From Hansfordia pulvinata (taxonomy: Eukaryota; Ascomycota; Sordariomycetes; Xylariales), in NCBI GenBank assembly GCA_006538405.1, contig BJKQ01000008.1, positions 496,001-560,000 on the forward strand: a DNA stretch of 64,000 nt. The letters run 5' to 3'. The translations under genes and the position numbers were made by a program. Under the pieces are notes generated by a model. That model was not told the DNA's origin and did no database searches. It saw only the letters and a list, made by a program, of their open reading frames with translations. Positions within the stretch are counted from its first letter, which is position 1, and each line of letters opens with the position of its first letter. Positions 6,001 to 17,364 of the stretch are shown piece after piece.

Positions 6001-8995
6001 GCGAGTGACGAGGCTGCGCAGGGGCCGGGACTGTGCCTGTACGCGTACGAGTACTCGTCGCGGTGGACGTGTTGGGGAGCACTCGCAAGATCATAGTCCC
6101 GTGGCAGTCTGGCATCCACAACTCGTATTGCGAGTCCGGGCGACAAGATCCAATATCAAGCCGTGTCCTTTTTTTAGTCGCGGCTGTTTACGAGCATGTG
6201 CTCGCACGTAGTCGAGATGGGCCCGAGCATCCCTGGAAGAGCCGCGACAGCGTCCTGCCCTTCTGTCTTTCATGCGTTTGTCTACCCACGATACCCAGAC
6301 AAGCCAGGAAATCCATACTTGTATAAACATCCCGCAGAGCCGGGCTGCTGGGGTCTGCACCCGCCTCTGCTGCAGTATTGGTCGGTCCAAGTTTTACAGT
6401 CGTCGCAACCTCACGGCAACGGAAACCCACCCCCAAAGACAGCCACGCAGTGCGAGAGGAGAGGGGCTTGGCAGACTGACGAGGGCGCCTTGACCACCGT
6501 CCGGACCCCTGACGCGCTGCCGACGGAATTAGGAGGGGGATCTCAGCGTGGCGAATGGGTGGGCGCACTCCTCTCGCGGGCGCGGTTGTCCCTCGACGTG
6601 GGAGAATCAATGGCGGTTTGCCTCTATACGAGTACCTAGGATCCGACCGATCAGCCAGTCAGCCAGATGCTTGGTCACCAAGTTGAAGCTCTTATCACGA
6701 GTATTCGCATTCACGTGTACGAACCATTAAAAGCCACCCAGGTACCGAGAGGCATCTCATCATTGACTCCAGATTTGCTTACTCGGCTCCTCCTTGCTTG
6801 CTGTCACTAGAACAGCATAGCTACCCTCTGGGGCCGTACCCGTACTCTTTCTCGTAAGCGGCGGTCCCCAAGTCATCACCGTCACGTCACGTTCCAGGCC
6901 GGGGATGGAGGGGCGGCCCTTTGCCCAGGCGCCCGGCGCGCATCCTCCTTTATTAGGTCGTTATGCGGTCGGCACACGTGGTAGTAGCGGTGGTGGTGAA
7001 TGGATTGCCATAACCATCATCATCATCATCTTCTTCAAGCAAATCAGCACCCCGTATATGCACCGTCTGGTGCCGGCGCCGTTCGCATATGCCGTCGAAC
7101 GGCGCAATTACTCAAAAAGGGGGCGGGGGAGAGGACAAAGGGGAGGGAGGATGCGGCAGTGGCAGAGAGATCGGCGGCGGGCTGGTGTCTTCCGAGCATG
7201 GCCTCGGCGGCACCACGGGCAAAGAGCCCCCAAGCAGCAGCCAGAGCTCTCTGCGGTGCGGTCGGCCTTCGCCTGGCAAGCCCGCCCGCCCCTATTTCGT
7301 TCATCGCATCCTCCAAGGGGCGCATCCATCGGGTGGCGATGTTTTGGGGGCGGCCGGCTGACAGGAGAGGCAAACGAGTACTCTGCAGACCGCAGACCGC
7401 AGACCGCAGACCGCAGACCGCAGACCGCAGACCGCAGACCGCAGATGGTGCCCCATCGGAAACTCGTACCTTATGTACTCGTAGGTATGATGGGTACCTT
7501 ACATCCTGCAACGTACGAGTATGGACGTCCTCGCCACCACCGTCGCCGCTGTAGCCACCGAATCAGGGACGTGGTTGTTTCCGAAACACTCGGGCGGGCG
7601 CGCAAGGCAACATTGATGGATACGAGTACCTCTCGCAAGGGTCGCGCACGCCGCGCGCTTGTGGAAGTTGCAAGGGACCTTTGCCATGCACGCCCGGCGA
7701 GTATCGAGTGGGATGCGCCAACGCACGGGGTCGGTTCAAATGCGTGCGAGTCCCTATTGGATGCGATGTGCAACTGTTCGATGATGCATTCCCGTCGGGC
7801 CCCTGCCAGTCGCCAGGTTAGGGCTACAAGTATGTGTACCTACCTACGGGCTACCTCCAAAGACAGTACTCGTACCCCAGGTATGAGGAGCGTGAGCAGA
7901 TCCGATGACGACTGTGTATCTGGTGATTAAGTGGGTAGAGGGCAGCGTGTTCTTGTACCTTTATGGATGCTGAGAGCGCCCGGATCTTGCATCTGCAAGT
8001 ACCTCGCTGCGTCGGGCGCGGTCTGGGGAACCTCTCGCAAAGCAAGAACGAAGTAAAAAAGCGCAGCAGGAATCTGCATGCCACCTGCACCGGACGATGC
8101 CCCATGCGGCGCCCGTCTTGTCCCTCGTCGCCCGCCGGGATAGCCCCATCTGCACCAACGTGATTGGTGAGGAGCTGGACAACCTGAAACAGCCCAAGCT
8201 GTCGAGAACCCACTCCCGCTGCGGTACACGTACTCAACGGGGGCCAGACCAGCGCTGCAGAGCCCGGGTAGCGGGTACGAGCCCATCCATGAGCCGGCCT
8301 GCCACGCCTGCGCTGGAACCAGATCAGAGTGCAGCGCCAAGATCATTGGCAGGCCAGTCCGAGCAGAGCCGGGCAGTGGAGGTCAGTGCTGGCGCATCCT
8401 GCGACGACCTGAAGCAGCTGACGCCAGGGGACGTCCATATCGAGGTAAGCACTGTAATAAGGCACCTTAGGTAGTACGAGTACCTACTCCGACGAGTACC
8501 TACAGCATGTAAGGTAGATATGGACGAGTTGTAGCCCAGGCATTGAATGCATCGTACGTGGTCCGTACCTTACATTATGGATGGTGGCATGAAAGCACGA
8601 ATTGCACGAGTACCGTGCCCCCGGTCACCCCCCGCAGATCGCTTGTCGCAGCATCTCATGCCGGCGGGCCGCAAACTGGAAAGGCAGAGAGGGATGGATA
8701 CCTGTACAATGACTGACGGGCTGCTGGGACTCTCCAGATGGAGAGCACATCTCGTGGCGTGAAAGCACACGGCGTTCGTCGTCGTGAGCCAACCGAGCAA
8801 AGAGGCATTTGATTCGGGCAAGGGCCAGACACCTGCCTGCCTATTCGTGGTCCCTTCTTTGTTAGTGGCAGCCCATCGGCGCTGTGAGACGAGACGAGAC
8901 ACGACGAGACGAGGCCGGACAGGACTGGACCGTACGGGTACTCGTACACGCGCGGATGGGTACCAGCGCCTCCAGTCCCCCAGGCCGGGTACCGG
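1..8995. other. Long gene-poor interval
   Basis: No reading frame here has the coherent composition, intron structure or recognisable motifs seen in the genes further right. The open frames are short or low in complexity and overlap each other on both strands. The interval contains many copies or near-copies of a GTACTCGTAC/GTACGAGTAC decamer, CGTCGT and CGG triplet runs near 5745-5875, and a heptamer tandem repeat near 7.4 kb. Its right end runs into the CT-rich leader of the STE11 gene. It could hold noncoding transcripts or decayed sequence, but nothing in it can be named. Confidence 0.6.
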
Positions 8996-9160
8996 GTGTA
9001 CATGGTTGTCGCCCCTCATGCCCCGTGGCCTGTGTGCCTGTGGCCTCCCTCCAGTGATGGCACCCCCAGATCGGTGGATGGTCTTGTGGAGTCGTGGTCT
9101 ACTCGATGTACGAGTACCGAACCTGCCCATACGTGGCGGCATACGGTACAGTACGAGTAC
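3963..9160. repeat. Cluster of dispersed GTACTCGTAC/GTACGAGTAC decamers
   Basis: Exact copies of GTACTCGTAC or its reverse complement start at 3963, 5965, 6045, 7866, 8474, 8938, 9108 and 9151, with many one-mismatch versions between them (for example at 4052 and 7513). Another exact copy lies at 41006, between AFI1 and CEG1. The decamer is two GTAC palindromes joined by TC or GA. I found no exact copy inside an exon annotated here. Its function is unknown; it may be a protein-binding site, a replication-associated motif or a remnant of short repeats. Confidence 0.7.
7384..7445. repeat. Heptanucleotide tandem repeat (GCAGACC)n
   Basis: About 8.7 uninterrupted copies of the 7-base unit GCAGACC can be read directly. 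The unit length is not a multiple of three, which argues against a coding role. A GTAC-rich stretch follows. Confidence 0.95.
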
Positions 9161-9949
9161 CACCTCCACGACCGTCACTCGACCATCTGTCTGCTTAGCC
9201 CGCCCGTCATTAATCCTCCTCATCCCTCTCCCCTCCCACCACCACCTCCCCTCCCCTTCTTCACTCACCTCCCCTCCCATCTCGCCGGAGGAGCCTGCGC
9301 TGCGCTTTGGTCTGTTGCTTTTCTTCCTTCTCCTAATAGTTTGGTTGGAAGAGCGGGATCCTCGTCGTGCTGTGGCATCAACGGACGACTTCGACGGGAA
9401 AAACGAGCACGACGACGACGACGACGACGACGACGACCGAGGTCCAGACGATCCAACCCGAGGCCGATTGCTCGACTCCGGCCCAACGAGACCCGGCGAC
9501 AACAAGCCCCCCCCTTTCGACGCTGCCGTGTTCCCCCGAATCGACCTTCTCAACCAACCCACCCATCCACCGCTTTCACAGCTGCGTTGCTGGTATCAAC
9601 GTCGCCCCTAAATTATACACCTAATCTGCGTCGCCCACAAGCACCTTCGCTTGTAGACTGCCGCCTCTGTTTCTGCCGCTGTGACACTGTCGCCGCTGCC
9701 GCCACCACCACCGCCTCCTCCTCTGCCGGCCCTGGACCCCACGATAATTGCCACTGGCCACCTCAACCGGACCTGCATACTGCACCCACGTTTGAGACTG
9801 CCAAGTTTCGCACTCGGGCACACGCCAGGCACGAGCCCGCCGCCGCCCCTCTCCGCCCCCATCTTCAACCCCCCTTTAAACCAACCCCAACCCGGCGCCC
9901 AGCGCTCTCAGCGTCGCTCAAACAGCGCACCTCAACGGTTCCTGTCAAC

Positions 9950-12691
9950 ATGGCCATGCTGGCCTCCAAGTCCTCCTTCCCGGCCTCGGTGGCTTCGTCC
10001 GGCTCTGCTATCCCCGGATCTTCACAGCCCTCCAACATGCCTCCCACGAGGAGAGCGCCCGCTGCGCCGGTGCCTGGCCAGCCTTTCGCCAGCCCCACAA
10101 ACTCCGAATTCAGCGACCTCGACGGCCCCGACTCAGCCAAGAACTGGTCCGAGGATCAGGTCTGCGAATACCTGCGTTCGCTCAAGTGCGGTGACTACGA
10201 GCAGCTCTTTCGCAACAACAACATCAATGGCGAGAATCTCCTCGAGATGGACAAGGAAGTCCTCAAGGAGATGGGCATCGACAAGGTTGGCGACCGCGTG
10301 CGTCTGTTTCTCGGCATCAAGAAGCTCCGCACCAAGGCTTACGCCAACCAAAAGAAGCGCAATCGGGTGAGTAACATTTGGCTACCGCAGACTGACCATT
10401 CCGCTGACAAGTTGCAGGATTCGTTTGGTGGCCTGGACATGCAGTACAACCCCTCGTCTGCCTCCCCTCGTCACCCTGGTCGCTCTGGTCCGCCCTCCGG
10501 TCGCCGTGACCCGATGGCCGCTCTCTACCCCACAATCGAGATCGCCAAAGCCTCGTCTCGGCCTTCCTCTCCCCTGCCCGGCACCGACTTGCGTGCCAGT
10601 CACCAACAACGAGCCCCCAGCAGTTACGGCAGAAACACCGCGTCCCCGGAGCCCAACATGCCCCCTCCCCGCCTGGTAAATACTCACACCCGCAACAACT
10701 CAAGTGTCGATGGTTCGCTGATGGCCGCGCTCCCACAGGGCCAAGATGTGATCCGCGTCATCTCAACCGGCGGTGTCACCAAGGTCGTCAAGGTCTCCGA
10801 GTGCCACACCTGCGAGGAGGTCATGCGCGTCACCCTGCGCAAGTTTGCCCTTCGCGAGGACCATGACCGTAACTACTGCTTCTGGGTTCTGGGTGGCGTC
10901 GAGCCCGACCCGAAACAAACCCGCCGGCTCGGCGACACTGAGCTTTGGCGCATCATCAAGGACGAGAAGCGCCCGGAAAGAAACCGCCTCATCTTGCGCC
11001 GGGTCCCTTCGGGCGAGCCTGGCAGCTCCGAGCTCGAGAGGGCCGCCGCCATCGCCATGGAGGAGGCTCAGCAGAGCCACTCGCGCGCTCTTGGCAATGT
11101 GCAAGACAAGAGGAGTCAGATGAAGGTGCAGAAGCTCCTCGGCGAAAACTGGGATCAAGGCCTCCAACAACCCCTCTCGCCAATCTCGGCTCAAGATCGT
11201 GAGCGTAACCTCAACAACGCTGCCAGAGACCTGGAGCGGCCGGCTCCTCCCACGGATCCCCGTGCCATGCCTAGGCGCAAGGGCCTGCTGCGCCAGTTTG
11301 GTGGTCTGAGACCCCCAAGCGAGCTGATCGCGTCCGACCTGGTTTCCTACTTTCCAGACCATCCGCGCGAGGAGATTGACCGCACGGCCCGCCTTTCCAT
11401 GCGCCGATCCACCCGCATGAGCCGCGTCAACAGTCGTCTGAGCGTCGCTAGCAACCTTAGCTTCGCCTCGAGTGTGATGGATGCCCCACCCATGCCCACC
11501 ATTGCTGATAGCTGGCTGCAAGGCAACGGGCAGGTGGCCAAGGTCAAGCAGAGAGACTCCCAGATGCGCCCCTACCGGGATTCCGTGTCCTCGTCCATGC
11601 TTGACACGCTGCAGGAGGAGTCGCCGATTGAGCCGAACCGCAAGTCCTACGTCTCGTTCACCGAGAGTGGCTCCGACTCCAACCCGGCCTCGCTGTCCGA
11701 GGCCGATGGCAGTGTCTCTGTGAGGCAAAGCTACTTTGACGAGAGCAGCACACAGGGCTCCGGCTCGGCCAAGGAGATCAGCTACGCCTTGGACCAGGAT
11801 GGCGAGGACGCTGACGAGGAGCTGACAAGCTTCTTGTCTGGCGAATCCTGGGATGACAACAAGTGGATGAAGGGTGCCTTGATTGGTCAGGGCTCATTTG
11901 GTGTTGTCTACCTTGCTCTGCACGCTGTCACGGGTGAGCTGCTCGCCGTGAAGCAGGTCGAAGCACCTTCGCCTGGCGCCAACAGCCAGAGCGATTCGAA
12001 GAAGAAGAGCATGATTGAGGCTCTGAAGCGTGAAATCTCCCTGCTCAGGGAGCTCCGCCACGCCAATATCGTGCAGTACCTTGGGGCCAGCTCCTCTGCT
12101 GAGCATCTCAACATTTTCCTCGAGTACGTGCCCGGAGGCTCGGTCCAGACCATGCTAAACTCGTACGGCGCGCTGCCGGAGCCCTTGGTGCGCAGTTTTG
12201 TCCGGCAGATTCTCCAAGGTCTCTCTTACCTGCACAACCGCGACATCATCCACAGAGACATCAAGGGTGCCAACATCCTGGTGGACAACAAGGGCACGAT
12301 CAAGATTTCCGACTTTGGTATCAGCAAGAAGCTCGAGGCGTCCAACATTCTCAGCGGTGCGAGCAACGCTAAGCACAGGCCTTCGCTACAGGGCTCCGTC
12401 TTCTGGATGGCTCCTGAGGTCGTGAAGCAGACGTCCTACACTCGCAAAGCCGACATCTGGTCACTTGGATGCTTGGTGGTGGAGATGATGACTGGATCGC
12501 ATCCCTTCCCTGACTGCAGTCAGCTTCAAGCCATCTTCAAGATTGGCGGCGGAAAGGCATCGCCCACCATCCCCGATAATGCCAGCGAGGAAGCCAAGCA
12601 GTTCCTGAGCCAGACGTTTGAAATCGACCACAACCTGCGACCCAGCGCCGACGAGCTCATGTTGAGCACGTTTTTGACACCGATCACTTAA
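9950..12691 (+). CDS. STE11: MAPKKK of the pheromone/filamentation pathway (Ste11 family)
   Basis: Serine/threonine kinase that phosphorylates the Ste7-type MAPKK in the mating and invasive-growth MAPK cascade. The start at 9950 sits in a good context (GTCAACATGG). A 51-nt intron (10367-10417, GTGAGT...TTGCAG) splits the frame; because it is a multiple of three with no stop, the frame stays open through it. The spliced protein is about 896 aa. A SAM domain lies at about residues 65-130 (starting NWSEDQVCEYL). A Ras-association-like domain spans about 248-336 (QDVIRVISTGGVTKVVKV). The C-terminal kinase domain, about 622-892, has the glycine loop GQGSFG, the lysine in LAVKQVE, catalytic HRDIKGAN and DFGISKK. 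This SAM-RA-kinase order is that of filamentous-fungal Ste11 proteins. The same frame is also open upstream to 8996, but that stretch is compositionally biased and probably leader. Confidence 0.95.
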   Translation: MAMLASKSSFPASVASSGSAIPGSSQPSNMPPTRRAPAAPVPGQPFASPTNSEFSDLDGPDSAKNWSEDQVCEYLRSLKCGDYEQLFRNNNINGENLLEMDKEVLKEMGIDKVGDRVRLFLGIKKLRTKAYANQKKRNRVSNIWLPQTDHSADKLQDSFGGLDMQYNPSSASPRHPGRSGPPSGRRDPMAALYPTIEIAKASSRPSSPLPGTDLRASHQQRAPSSYGRNTASPEPNMPPPRLVNTHTRNNSSVDGSLMAALPQGQDVIRVISTGGVTKVVKVSECHTCEEVMRVTLRKFALREDHDRNYCFWVLGGVEPDPKQTRRLGDTELWRIIKDEKRPERNRLILRRVPSGEPGSSELERAAAIAMEEAQQSHSRALGNVQDKRSQMKVQKLLGENWDQGLQQPLSPISAQDRERNLNNAARDLERPAPPTDPRAMPRRKGLLRQFGGLRPPSELIASDLVSYFPDHPREEIDRTARLSMRRSTRMSRVNSRLSVASNLSFASSVMDAPPMPTIADSWLQGNGQVAKVKQRDSQMRPYRDSVSSSMLDTLQEESPIEPNRKSYVSFTESGSDSNPASLSEADGSVSVRQSYFDESSTQGSGSAKEISYALDQDGEDADEELTSFLSGESWDDNKWMKGALIGQGSFGVVYLALHAVTGELLAVKQVEAPSPGANSQSDSKKKSMIEALKREISLLRELRHANIVQYLGASSSAEHLNIFLEYVPGGSVQTMLNSYGALPEPLVRSFVRQILQGLSYLHNRDIIHRDIKGANILVDNKGTIKISDFGISKKLEASNILSGASNAKHRPSLQGSVFWMAPEVVKQTSYTRKADIWSLGCLVVEMMTGSHPFPDCSQLQAIFKIGGGKASPTIPDNASEEAKQFLSQTFEIDHNLRPSADELMLSTFLTPIT

Positions 12692-13830
12692 GAGAGCTGC
12701 AGACTTCCGTCCGCCAGGAGTGAGTGTGGGGGAGATGAACCTTGCGCTGGCAATGGGATCCCCTTTCCCGTTTTTCTGGCCACCATTGGCACCGTTTCGA
12801 AATCAGCTGCGATGATGAGACTTGCGGTCAAACTCTCTCCAGGTTCGTAACTTGGTTCGGAAACGCCACACATCTCGAAAAAGAAAAAGAAAAAGAAAAC
12901 CCCACCAACATGGATGGATTCACCCTCTGAGGTGATCCATTCTATGATGCATCAGACGGCGCAGGAATTGTTTCACAATTTTTAGACACGATTTGCCGCG
13001 TCATGTTATTCCCGCGTTCTCAGACTAGACACGAGCATTTACGACACGAGTGACGGAACGCGACGATACACTGGGGTCTTGGAGGGCACACGACAATGTG
13101 CCGAGGCGTCTATGCGAGGCAGCAGACGAGAGGACGGTGGAGGGACTGAGATCGCACAGATTTCGCCTAATTACCTTCCCTCATTCTTTCGTTTACCATA
13201 ATACCCTGCTCTGTTCTCCCTTGCTGCGCGAAAACGAGGACGGGAGCTGTAATAATTTAACTCGTTGCCCCTCCACTTCCGCTGCGATGATGAAGAGCGT
13301 TCAATACGATGAGTTTAGCGATTCCAGATGCCCCCTGCGCAAGCTTCGTGACGTGTCGTGCGTGTTTGTATAGCTTGCCACCTTGTCGACCGCGCGGTCT
13401 TTGAAGTGGCGAGGACAACGGTCCATATTTCAGCATCTCATCTTGCTTACGCTGATGGCGTGGCCCTTCATGATGAGGCAGCCTTCACGACCTTGACTTG
13501 CCCTTCTGGAGCAGCAGAGATCACATTACCAGCTCGCTCCAGCGGTCATACCGCTGTCTGCTCCTCGTGTTCAAAATTCGCTTATTTCTCATGTCTCTGT
13601 GTCTTTTGGCTGGGTAGGTAGGTAGGTACATAGCTAGTGCTCATCCGCCGCGTGTGAGTCGCAGGACCGGGCGAAGTTCTGATGGGGGACTACTACGACG
13701 ACGACGACGAGGCCTGCCGGACTGAGTCGGCGGTTTCCCAGGAAGTGTCATCACTGTGGCGTTCTGCCCGGCTGACGCTGTCTGGCCGCGGCTCACTGCT
13801 CCTCCTAGGCCTCCTGCTGTCTCTCCTCTT
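12692..13830. other. Intergenic region, 3' ends of two converging genes
   Basis: The region lies between the STE11 stop and the last stop of the secreted-protein locus on the other strand. It contains an A-rich AAAAAG repeat (about 12880-12898) typical of a 3' untranslated region and a (TAGG)n run near 13611-13627. No gene is supported. Confidence 0.6.
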
Positions 13831-14032
13831 CTACTCCGCCTCCTCCCCCTCCTCCGTCTTGGCCCTCCTGGGCTGCTGGCACCTGTATGCGCCCATTCTA
13901 TGGACGCAGTTGCCCCCAGCCTCTTTGCATAGTTTTCTGTATTCAGGCAGAATATTTTTCAGGAGTTCGCGGTCGAGACTGTCGCTGAGGTGGGATGTGA
14001 AGATAGCCTGACCTGTGATTCTTCTGAGGTAA
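13831..14032 (-). CDS. Alternative terminal exon 3 of the small secreted-protein locus
   Basis: Third homologous exon. The acceptor is GTGTCCTCAG, with a CTGAC branch-like site further upstream. Its first base, T, again completes an Asn codon with the signal exon (AA|T). Exon 1 plus this exon is 282 nt, giving a 93-aa protein. The IFT-x22-C-x15-C spacing is identical to the other two. It has an additional Cys in GGNC and an acidic end (KTEEGEEAE). The distance from the common donor would make a 1,028-nt intron, long for this genome. No separate promoter or signal exon is visible in the roughly 190 nt between it and terminal exon 2. Confidence 0.58.
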
Positions 14033-14224
14033 CTGAGGACACGCGCGAGGCGGGGTCGGAGCCCCAAGGGCCGTCAGCATTCTTTTCTGATTGTGACATG
14101 TCTTTTTTTGTTTTGAGAGAAAAACAAAAGGCGAAGGAGAGGGAAAAGACAAAGGCAGGACAGGGCAGGAGGGAAAAGACAGAATAAGCCAAGGTTAAAC
14201 AGCTAGCCGTCGTTGCCCGTCGTT

Positions 14225-14435
14225 CTACTGGGCCTCGCTCTGATCGTCTCCTTGGTCTTCTTGTTTCTTTTGGCGTTTGCACCCGAGTACGTTGTGTCGC
14301 CGCTGGGGCTGGCCGTTGCAGCTCCTGCACGTCTTGGCGTACGCCGCGGGGAAATCAGGGCTCGCTCTCGCGATCTCGTAGTTGGAGAAGACCCTTGTGA
14401 AGATGGTGCGTTCGGCTTTCAAATCTCGGAGGAGG
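14225..14435 (-). CDS. Alternative terminal exon 2 of the small secreted-protein locus
   Basis: This open exon begins after a pyrimidine-rich acceptor (CCCTCCCTTAG), with a possible CTGAT branch site about 33 nt upstream. Its first base, C, completes an Asn codon when joined to the exon ending at 15061. Exon 1 (80 nt) plus this exon (211 nt) is 291 nt, an exact multiple of three, giving a 96-aa secreted protein. It keeps the layout of terminal exon 1: IFT, 22 residues, Cys, 15 residues, Cys, then a charged tail ending SEAQ-stop. It has one extra Cys (TCRSCNG). No signal-peptide exon of its own is visible between terminal exon 1 and this exon. It may be an alternatively spliced last exon, or a duplicate that has lost its first exon. 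Confidence 0.6.
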
Positions 14436-14669
14436 CTAAGGGAGGGGCGGGGAGAGAGGAGGAAAGCAAGAGGCAATCAGTATTTCTGTTTTTTGTTTTT
14501 TTTTTGAGGAAATTCTGGAGGGGGCGAGCGGTGTTTTCTCGGGGGAAGATCAAGGCAAGAGAACAGACAGACGAAAAGCAAAGTGTACGTCATGGTGGGC
14601 GGAGCGGAGTGAAGGCGCGGGAAAGGGTGAAGAAAGGGTGGGGGTTTGAGGGGAGAGCCGGCGGCGGAC

Positions 14670-15140
14670 TCAGCCGGTAAAGGGAGACCAGATGGACCAT
14701 TCCTTCTTCTCCTCGGCCTGGTCGTCTCCCCGCTCGCACGTGTAGGAGTTCGCCCGGGACACAGGCTGGCCGCCGCGGTCCCTGCATTTCTGCGCCCACC
14801 ACACCTTGAAGTCTTGGTGATGCGTTCGCATGGCTTCTTCGCTGATTCGCTCGGTGAAGATGCGACCCTCCAAGCCCAGGTTCCAAAGGTAGCTGGTCGG
14901 GGAGGGCACAGGCAGGTGAGCACACGCAGCAGGGCCGCTGCCAGTACTGCCCTCCCCTCCTTTTGCCTCCATTCTTACACGGGGGGAGGGATGGGACGAG
15001 AGAAAAGAAACGACAGACAAAATAAAGGGAAGGGGAAAAATAGAGAGATTCGGCACTCACTTTGCCTCTTCGGCGGTCAGGGCCATGGCTGGGCTCAGGA
15101 AGCTTCCCAGCAAGAGGATGAGGGGCGCGTGGAGTTGCAT
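14670..15140 (-). CDS. Small secreted protein, isoform 1 (signal exon plus terminal exon 1)
   Basis: Exon 1 (15061-15140) starts MQLHAPLILLLGSFLSPAMA, a clear signal peptide with probable cleavage after AMA. It ends in phase 2 (codon AA_) at a GTGAGT donor. Exon 2 (14670-14892) follows a 168-nt intron with acceptor GACCAG, and its first base completes an Asn codon. The predicted protein is 100 aa, about 80 aa mature, with two cysteines 15 residues apart (KCRDRGG...YTCERG) and a charged tail. A TATATAA box lies 217 nt upstream. I do not recognise the family. It could be a secreted effector-like or extracellular signalling protein, but nothing in the sequence fixes a role. Two further exons downstream are homologous to exon 2 and fit the same donor. 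Confidence 0.75.
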
Positions 15141-15356
15141 TCTTTTTTCTTTTTTCTTCTTATCCTTTATCTGTCCTATTTGATTGACGGTTTTCTGCGT
15201 CGAGTCGCGATGATGGAACACCGGGCGATGAAGGGGTATCGAAAAGGCGTCGACAGGGCACGGCGGGACAAGCAAGATGTGGATGAGACCCAAAGACGAG
15301 GTTGTTGTTTTTCTTCCTTGCGTCTGGGAGTCGAGAGAGGGGGAATTCCACGCTCG

Positions 15357-15363
15357 TTATATA
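15357..15363 (-). promoter_or_regulatory. TATA box of the small secreted-protein locus
   Basis: TATATAA on the minus strand, 217 nt upstream of the signal-exon ATG. It is the only convincing TATA element seen for the three homologous exons, which fits a single transcription unit. A (GA)n tract lies about 60 nt further upstream. Confidence 0.5.
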
Positions 15364-15418
15364 GCCACGTCGGAGCCGAGTCGCAGACATCCTCCACACC
15401 GCACGGACAGAGACACTC

Positions 15419-15421
<3 letters not shown>

Positions 15422-15457
<36 letters not shown>
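15422..15457. repeat. (GA)n microsatellite
   Basis: Uninterrupted GA dinucleotide run upstream of the secreted-protein locus. Similar runs occur at about 16126-16173, 17365-17399, 49642-49683 and 49958-49979. Confidence 0.95.
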
Positions 15458-15461
<4 letters not shown>

Positions 15462-17364
15462 CGAGATGATCATGTCAGCTGCCGGTTCTCGAATCCTCCA
15501 CCGAATCGTGTCATGGTGGCGGCGAGGGTAATACCGGCGCACAGCAGAGCGTGGCAGAGAAGGAAAAGAGCCTGTCAGAGTCAGTCGAGCCGCAGAGCAG
15601 GGGCTCCAGCGAGCAGGGGCTCCAGGCTGCTGTCAACTTCCAAGCCTCGTGTCATCACCCACAACTGGAGCTCAACACAAGTACTCGGAGAAGCATGGGA
15701 TGGGTGTGGTACTCGTGTCTGCTGAGTGGTGGCGAAGAGTCAGCATCACCACGCAAACTCTTGAGCCAAATAGATACATATGGTAACTAGGTACATAATC
15801 AAGTAAGCTGATCCGAGCCCGAGGGTGGCGCTGCTTGCCACCTGCGTCGCCCAGCAAGAAACAAAGGCGTGGCTTGACCCGGTGTTGCGACTGGGTGGTG
15901 AAACATTCAAACCCTGTTCATCCTCTCTTCTTTTCCTTCGTTATCGTCCGTCCACTTCCTGGGCCTGGCCGTGGCCATGAATCAAGGTTGTGCAAACCAG
16001 CCGCATGTCCGTCCTCTACACCACGCCCGTCCATACCAGAAAGCCCGTGCCTGAATTGCAGAGAGCCCCCTCTCTGCCATCCTCACTACCTCCCACGATG
16101 TATCCTTATGAGTAAGGTTCAACCTTGAGAGAAAGAGAGAGAGAGAGAGAGAGAGATAGTGAGAGAGTGAGAAACAGAGGAATCCACCACCATTGGACAA
16201 GTTCTGAATGCTCTCAAGAATGGGGCATAGCTTGCCACATTCTAGCCTCAGCACAGTCCCCCCCCCCCCCCCCCCCTCTTCCTTACGATTGTCTGAACAT
16301 TGTCAATATGCTTCTTCTCCTTCTCCTTCTTCCTCTTCTGCTGCTGGTGTGCGCTTACAAGATCATCAAAACGCCGAAGCTTCCACACAACCCTTCTCTC
16401 TCAGGGCTCAAGGGGGAAAAGTGAGGGAGTCGGGGTGGGGGGGAGAAGGTAAAGGCTTCGTCTTTCGCCGAGGGGGGCCACGTGCTCTAAAGAACGATTA
16501 GATCGGTGTCGATAAATGCAAGATCCCTTCAAAGAGACGATATAGAGAACGGATCCGATGAAAAGGTAACAAGAGAGACTGGCGTGTTCACCTCTCTGTG
16601 TTCTCGGGGGAAGAAAGAGGGACTATGTCTCCACATGTATACCTAGTATCTATTGTATCACAGGTTTGACTCGGTTGAGGGGGGGTTGGTCGGGGGGCCG
16701 AATCTCCCGTAGGGCCGTCGCCAAGATCTATCCAACCAGGAGACGCCCGGCTGTATTTCTCAGTGCTGGCTGGCTGGCTATCCCGAGTTTACCTGATCTG
16801 GCCCGAGGACACCCCAGAGTTCGGGCGTGGTGATTCCACGAGCACCATGCTCCAGGGTCTCCCCGCCGGCTGCGGCGCGACCCGCGTCGCAACGCCAAAA
16901 CATGAATAGCCTGGATAGGGCGACGATCAGCGGCGGGGAGCTCCCATCTCCCGCCCCCCCCGTTTCTCGACAGAACCATGTTTCGTGTACGTTGCCCCGG
17001 AGCAGGGGGCAGAGCGACGGTGCTGCGACGACGTCCGGCATCGCGCACCATCTGGATGCAGGCAGCTGGCATCTCAAGAGCCCCGCGGGCCGGCGGGTGG
17101 CAATCAGGCAGGCCCTGGGACTCGGGGTTGGTGCCCTTCCACCGCGAATCGCGAGGATTCGCCCTTGTGGTAGAACAGTTCCTGCCTTGGCCACAAGAAT
17201 CGACAGACGCGATGCATGACAGTCACCCAGTTCACGGACGGGGAGGGGGAGCATGAGAAAATCGGCGATGGAACCCAGCGGCAAATATTGGCCGCTGCCT
17301 GTCGTATTGTCTCCGGAAAGCCCCCCGCCAAAAGACAGACACCATCCGGCCGATCGGAAAATAA

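Follow-up and report, generated by a model that had tools for sequence, protein, structure and literature searches.

The question raised by this locus in Hansfordia pulvinata is whether a single exon, which looks like one encoding a classical signal peptide, may be spliced to any of three homologous terminal exons lying in tandem behind it, or whether only the nearest of these is in use, or the more distant copies are transcribed separately or joined to one another. The locus occupies the minus strand of a stretch of 64,000 nucleotides (the window, positions 496001-560000 of contig 8 in a genome of 46.8 Mb and 63 contigs), where it lies tail to tail with a gene for a STE11-type kinase (Table 1). 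A preliminary description of the same DNA had proposed mutually exclusive terminal exons behind one signal exon; we have examined its coordinates, together with the coding signal, relatedness and splice sites of the exons.

Table 1. Features of the locus and its neighbour, in window coordinates, listed in the direction of transcription of the minus strand.
Feature	Coordinates	Strand	Remarks
TATA-like site	15358-15363	-	sole TATAWA match on this strand in 13600-15500
Exon 1	15061-15140	-	80 nt; encodes MQLHAPLILLLGSFLSPAMALTAEEA followed by AA, then GTGAGT
GTGAGT donor	15055-15060	-	sole GTRNGT match on this strand in 13600-15500
Intron 1 (exon 1 to exon A)	14893-15060	-	168 nt; CTCAC at 14916-14920
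Terminal exon A	14670-14892	-	223 nt; predicted 100-aa isoform; acceptor CAG
Spacer A-B	14436-14669	-	pyrimidine-rich; A-rich patch 14481-14507; CTGAT 14476-14480; acceptor TAG
Hydrophobic ATG frame	14477-14593	-	38 aa; ATG at 14593; begins MTYTLLFVCLFSC; stops in spacer A-B
Terminal exon B	14225-14435	-	211 nt; predicted 96-aa isoform; no Met codon
Spacer B-C	14033-14224	-	pyrimidine-rich; A-rich patch 14099-14116; CTGAC 14073-14077; acceptor CAG
Terminal exon C	13831-14032	-	202 nt; predicted 93-aa isoform; one Met codon, 3' of the first Cys
STE11-type MAPKKK	open frame 8888-12691	+	SAM, Ras-binding and kinase domains; convergent with the array (3' ends facing)

The exon anatomy given in the preliminary description proved correct in its coordinates. 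Exon 1 ends in AA at its donor, and the acceptors at 14892, 14435 and 14032 follow CAG, TAG and CAG, respectively, so placed that the first bases of A, B and C (C, C and T) each complete an Asn codon. Every terminal exon opens after AG in phase 2 and closes with a stop of its own, the sums with exon 1 being 303, 291 and 282 nt including stops, and the motif IFT-x22-C-x15-C is found in all three. The product of exon 1 would comprise the signal peptide MQLHAPLILLLGSFLSPAMA, with an AxA end (the cleavage site was judged by eye), then LTAEEA and two bases of the split Asn codon. The claim of a single TATA box also stands, one TATA-like site being present in 13600-15500, upstream of exon 1; the 64-kb window holds 10 TATAWA matches, with both strands counted and two palindromic sites counted twice. 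That of a single signal exon stands in part: exon 1 has the sole GTRNGT donor between 13600 and 15500, the upper limit of both the donor and the TATA searches, but a second hydrophobic ATG frame, unmentioned in that description, opens at 14593 in spacer A-B. Upstream of the gene, GA dinucleotide tracts occur at about 15422-15461 and 16127-16178 of the window.

Other splicing features are less regular. Intron 1 has CTCAC alone, with no match to the stricter branch-like pattern CTRAY, and the CTRAY matches preceding B and C are each 45 nt away from the acceptor, a rather long distance for fungi. If spliced, the introns from exon 1 to B and C would measure 625 and 1028 nt, and fungal introns of these sizes are long.

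Exons A, B and C are related beyond chance, as judged from their sequences, with B-C the weakest pair. Protein local alignment scored 84 for A-B and 59 for A-C, against maxima of 52 and 51, respectively, in 5000 shuffles; the B-C score of 44 was reached by 7 of 5000. At the DNA level the observed similarity was equalled by 2/300 (A-B), 0/300 (A-C) and 4/300 (B-C) shuffles, and protein identity among the three is 20-39%. When the window's 804 open frames of 50 aa or longer were compared by blastp at E<=1e-4, a single non-overlapping similar pair, A-B, emerged, and C was linked to neither; C is tied to the family by its similarity to A in the shuffle test, and a profile built from A, B and C matches all three by construction. 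Outside the exons, the similarity between the two spacers, and that between intron 1 and spacer B-C, were each reached by 1/300 shuffles, compared with 41/300 for intron 1 and spacer A-B, and 13, 28 and 60/300 for the stretch after C set against the three other non-exon regions. This weak likeness fits, and does not prove, tandem duplication of an acceptor together with its exon. Cassette switching by recent gene conversion was rejected: the longest identical DNA between any two exons is 9-10 nt.

The training set for the codon scores was ten open frames from the window, two of them without a known domain. The claimed frame was the best of six for all four exons, with 0-1 of 2000 shuffles as good (1/2000 for exon 1); among the terminal exons, B and C (-0.04 and -0.09) scored below A (0.20). 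An antisense gene, in the form of a 364-aa plus-strand open frame (14631-15725), was also considered and is unsupported, with a codon score of -0.21. NG86 dN/dS values were 0.71/1.07 for A-B, 0.77/2.61 for A-C and 1.12/2.00 for B-C, in which dS is near saturation and the ratios are rough. The exon frames were compared with an indel-free neutral simulation, in 4000 runs each. With 0.5 substitutions per site, 4.4% of runs for A, 7.9% for B and 11.0% for C retained an open frame, and 0, 0.075% and 0.075%, respectively, retained both the open frame and the complete motif; at 0.25 substitutions per site the ranges were 11-24% open and 0.7-1.5% open with the motif. The outcome at 0.1 substitutions per site is less telling, with 33-51% open and 11-18% keeping the motif. 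With their open frames, codon signal and motif, B and C are unlikely to be long-dead copies. Most likely, if the divergence estimate is right, both were under selection until recently, a statement that concerns their past and not the present.

How B and C could be translated narrows the choice further. Exon B lacks Met codons altogether, and in C there is none before the first Cys, so that both need an upstream start exon if the motif is to be intact. We enumerated single-intron splice models in which the reading frame is open from an ATG and the donor, in phase 2, precedes the acceptor by 45 nt or more, with 15500 as upper limit, and ranked them by a simple score based on the ascomycete donor consensus, GTRNGT. 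Qualifying models numbered 5 for A, 14 for B and 14 for C, and exon 1 with its GTGAGT was the top-scoring model for each. Because B and C need a start exon and exon 1 has the only consensus donor in 13600-15500, alternative terminal exons that share exon 1 are favoured, and we infer that splices from exon 1 to A, B and C occur. We accordingly regard as probable a single transcription unit in which the signal exon is joined to one of three mutually exclusive terminal exons.

Against this have to be set readings in which the shared use of exon 1 is partial or absent. It is possible, if unlikely, that exons 1 and A alone are expressed, and that B and C are duplicated exons which are dying or are spliced occasionally as noise. 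The intron leading to A is the shortest (168 nt) and has its branch-like site, albeit the less typical CTCAC, closer to the acceptor; A also has the highest codon score of the three, and the first acceptor is normally favoured in splicing. This account must nevertheless accommodate the retention by B and C of frame, acceptor, phase and motif at near-saturated divergence, a combination that was rare in the neutral simulation at that divergence. A different arrangement would place exon B, possibly with C behind it, in a separate transcript starting at the ATG at 14593. The frame that begins there is strongly hydrophobic, to a degree equalled by 8/1000 shuffles (exon 1, by the same measure, is less unusual, with 39/1000 as high), its ATG stands in the context CCACCATGA, a good start context by consensus, and it shares the reading frame of exon B, from which a single stop separates it. 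Yet the phase-compatible donors within it, GTACAC (after one codon) and GTTCTC, are both poor, neither spacer contains a TATA-like site, and pyrimidine-rich DNA is in any case inclined to encode Leu, Phe and Ser. Moreover, spacer B-C offers no comparable frame for C, its best being matched by 512/1000 shuffles, and a separate transcript of this kind seems to us very improbable.

We attach as little credence to a chain in which weaker donors inside A or B join the next exon in phase to yield a longer repeat protein. Donors with G at position 5 do occur, in phase 2 inside A at 14739 (GTGCGA) and 14799 (GTGGGC), and inside B at 14342 (GTACGC, its phase 2 read from the sequence), but none of the donors inside A or B matches GTRNGT, and their use would remove Cys residues that are conserved at equal spacing in all three exons.

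In the reading with three mutually exclusive terminal exons, transcription of one gene would be directed by the TATA site near 15363, and every transcript would combine the signal exon with just one of three terminal exons, tandem duplicates that end in stops of their own, and so would encode one protein. The outcome would be three small secreted proteins, alike in signal peptide and N-terminus (LTAEEAN) and distinct in their bodies. Competition between acceptors, perhaps also between poly(A) sites, may decide which exon is chosen, and the secreted isoforms may have a variable extracellular target, for example a host or competitor factor. Of the proposal in the preliminary description that the gene is switchable, the sharing of exon 1 and its signal peptide is favoured by the sequence, but a regulated choice goes beyond it. 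Several points tell against the three-exon reading: the 625- and 1028-nt introns, the distant CTRAY sites, the presence in intron 1 of CTCAC only, the lower codon scores of B and C, and a search for relatives that found none in other species.

Two further features bear on how the choice between exons might be made. A-rich patches, which are candidate poly(A) elements, occur once in each of the two spacers and 17 times in the window over both strands; since there are also two in the 5' leader and one inside exon B, and none 3' of exon C, they are not specific markers of 3' ends. When seven regions were assessed for RNA pairing with intron 1, the value for spacer B-C was reached by 1/200 shuffles, that for exon A by 7/200, that for the 5' leader by 24/200 and those for the other four regions by 69-160/200. 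Pairing between intron 1 and spacer B-C as a governor of exon choice is a lead only. The predicted partners are 14901-15060 in intron 1, which is in part purine-rich, and 14044-14222 in the pyrimidine-rich spacer B-C, on the minus strand.

In sequence, the predicted isoforms resemble no protein family in the collections searched. A Pfam scan (E<=10) gave nothing above cut-off, its only two matches being YbcO for B (E 0.061) and AAA_lid_11 for C (E 0.17), and found no serpin domain in any of the three; a sequence search of the PDB gave no significant match (best E 0.25). Whether queried with a single isoform or with an alignment of all three, the protein database yielded no homologue at E<=1 (15 and 74 candidates), a result whose weight is limited by the word filter of that search and the strong divergence of the family. 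The same database returned 416 matches to the STE11 query, with many Xylariales proteins among the 120 listed; containing so many of these, it would probably have yielded an annotated close relative, though not a diverged or unannotated one. No relative was confirmed among 109 stretches of viral contigs or 34 of prokaryote genome contigs, and in the window the three-exon profile found no further match with an E value below 0.48. Single-protein searches of the 46.8-Mb genome gave no convincing extra copy; such searches are weak, would miss strongly diverged copies and, with C as query, recovered C alone and not its sisters A and B. A minus-strand frame on contig 15 (389206-389337) matches residues 23-65 of the exon B query with 30% identity at E 0.31, apparently by chance. 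Rfam matches in 12600-16800 and tRNA predictions in the window were both nil, and a scan for bacterial promoters and terminators carries no meaning for fungal DNA.

Structure models built from the three sequences agree with one another at low overall confidence (58.5 and 61.2), and on these models the isoforms probably fold into a helix and then a beta-hairpin, with one conserved Cys near the helix end and the other in the second strand. A small, secreted, fast-diverging orphan with two Cys residues would suit the role of an effector or of an antimicrobial protein, for which the isoforms are candidates.

The surroundings of the locus point to a probable Xylariales-like ascomycete. Among the 120 listed of the 416 proteins matched by the STE11 frame, the most similar come from Hypoxylon, Biscogniauxia, Daldinia and other Xylariales, the best of those listed having 79% identity over 72% of the frame. 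Pfam gave no match for two open frames at 16.8-19.0 kb. In a scan of 20 frames, the conserved neighbours that Pfam identified at 30-57 kb of the window were an S15 peptidase, SNF5, SPA- and Afi1-domain frames and an mRNA capping enzyme, as well as an esterase, DUF4484 and a fungal transcription-factor domain.

As in the class of mutually exclusive terminal exons, a single donor exon is here followed by homologous downstream exons of the same phase, each alternative having its own stop. The closest arrangement known to us, from the parts of the report consulted, is that of PpSerpin-1 of Pteromalus puparum, in which a common part is combined with 21 alternatively spliced C-terminal exons (PMC10513286); its isoforms, which were studied experimentally, are recruited to venom and saliva, and its alternative exons have dN and dN/dS above those of the constitutive exons (PMC10513286). 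The common upstream part and the several alternative C-terminal exons are alike in the two cases, here as read from the sequence. Unlike in the insect serpins, almost the entire mature protein would be switched here, and the Pfam scan of the isoforms gave no serpin domain.

Among fungal small secreted proteins, the nearest family that we encountered, compared by description rather than by alignment, is that of the IGY proteins, which in the portion of their account consulted are small, fast-diverging and secreted, with two conserved Cys residues and a fixed gene structure (PMC4367982). Their N-terminal motif, beside the signal peptide, spans the junction of exons 1 and 2 and ends in 2-3 Glu then Ala in 53 of 79 motifs; the C-terminal motif is QMxIP (PMC4367982). 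The isoforms described here resemble them in two Cys residues, a junction-spanning N-terminus and an exon 1 ending in TAEEA, where EEA is a resemblance only. Read by eye, the three isoforms contain neither the IGY motif nor QMxIP, and at 93-100 aa from two exons they differ from the IGY proteins of M. brunnea, of which 105 of 107 have 187-268 aa and 100 of 107 have three exons, all being separate genes (PMC4367982). Homologues in other fungi are looser (three exons in 38 of 47), and alternative splicing in the family is mostly a matter of 5' or 3' site choice, plus a single skipped exon (PMC4367982).

Surveys of alternative splicing in fungi, as far as the consulted sections go, point elsewhere. 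Intron retention dominates in two isolates of C. fulvum, with 71.1% and 70.7% of events, where the event classes scored include alternative first and last and mutually exclusive exons (PMC11694984), and it dominates in M. oryzae (PMC8942408). In those sections no tandem array of homologous terminal exons is described for either species (PMC11694984, PMC8942408). A search of the open-access literature by title and opening of the abstract, with most subscription journals outside its reach, found no fungal array of alternative terminal exons with a signal peptide. The statement in the preliminary description that no such fungal family had been described agrees with this limited search, but the arrangement itself is known from the insect serpins, in the sections consulted (PMC10513286). 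What would be new is the fungal small-secreted-protein setting, for which we found no report within open-access limits; alternative terminal exons as such are known.

The usual view is that secreted proteins of fungi diversify via gene duplication. We see an even balance for and against the further proposition that this locus diversifies an orphan secreted protein by duplicating its terminal exon rather than the gene, with exclusive, perhaps regulated, choice among the copies and with nearly the whole mature protein swapped behind a common promoter, signal peptide and N-terminus. If confirmed, the exon array would be a second route to secreted-protein diversity in fungi and a compact system in which to study exclusive exon choice in a fungus. 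Gene predictors tend towards one last exon per gene, and they could, on the same condition, overlook secreted-protein isoforms.
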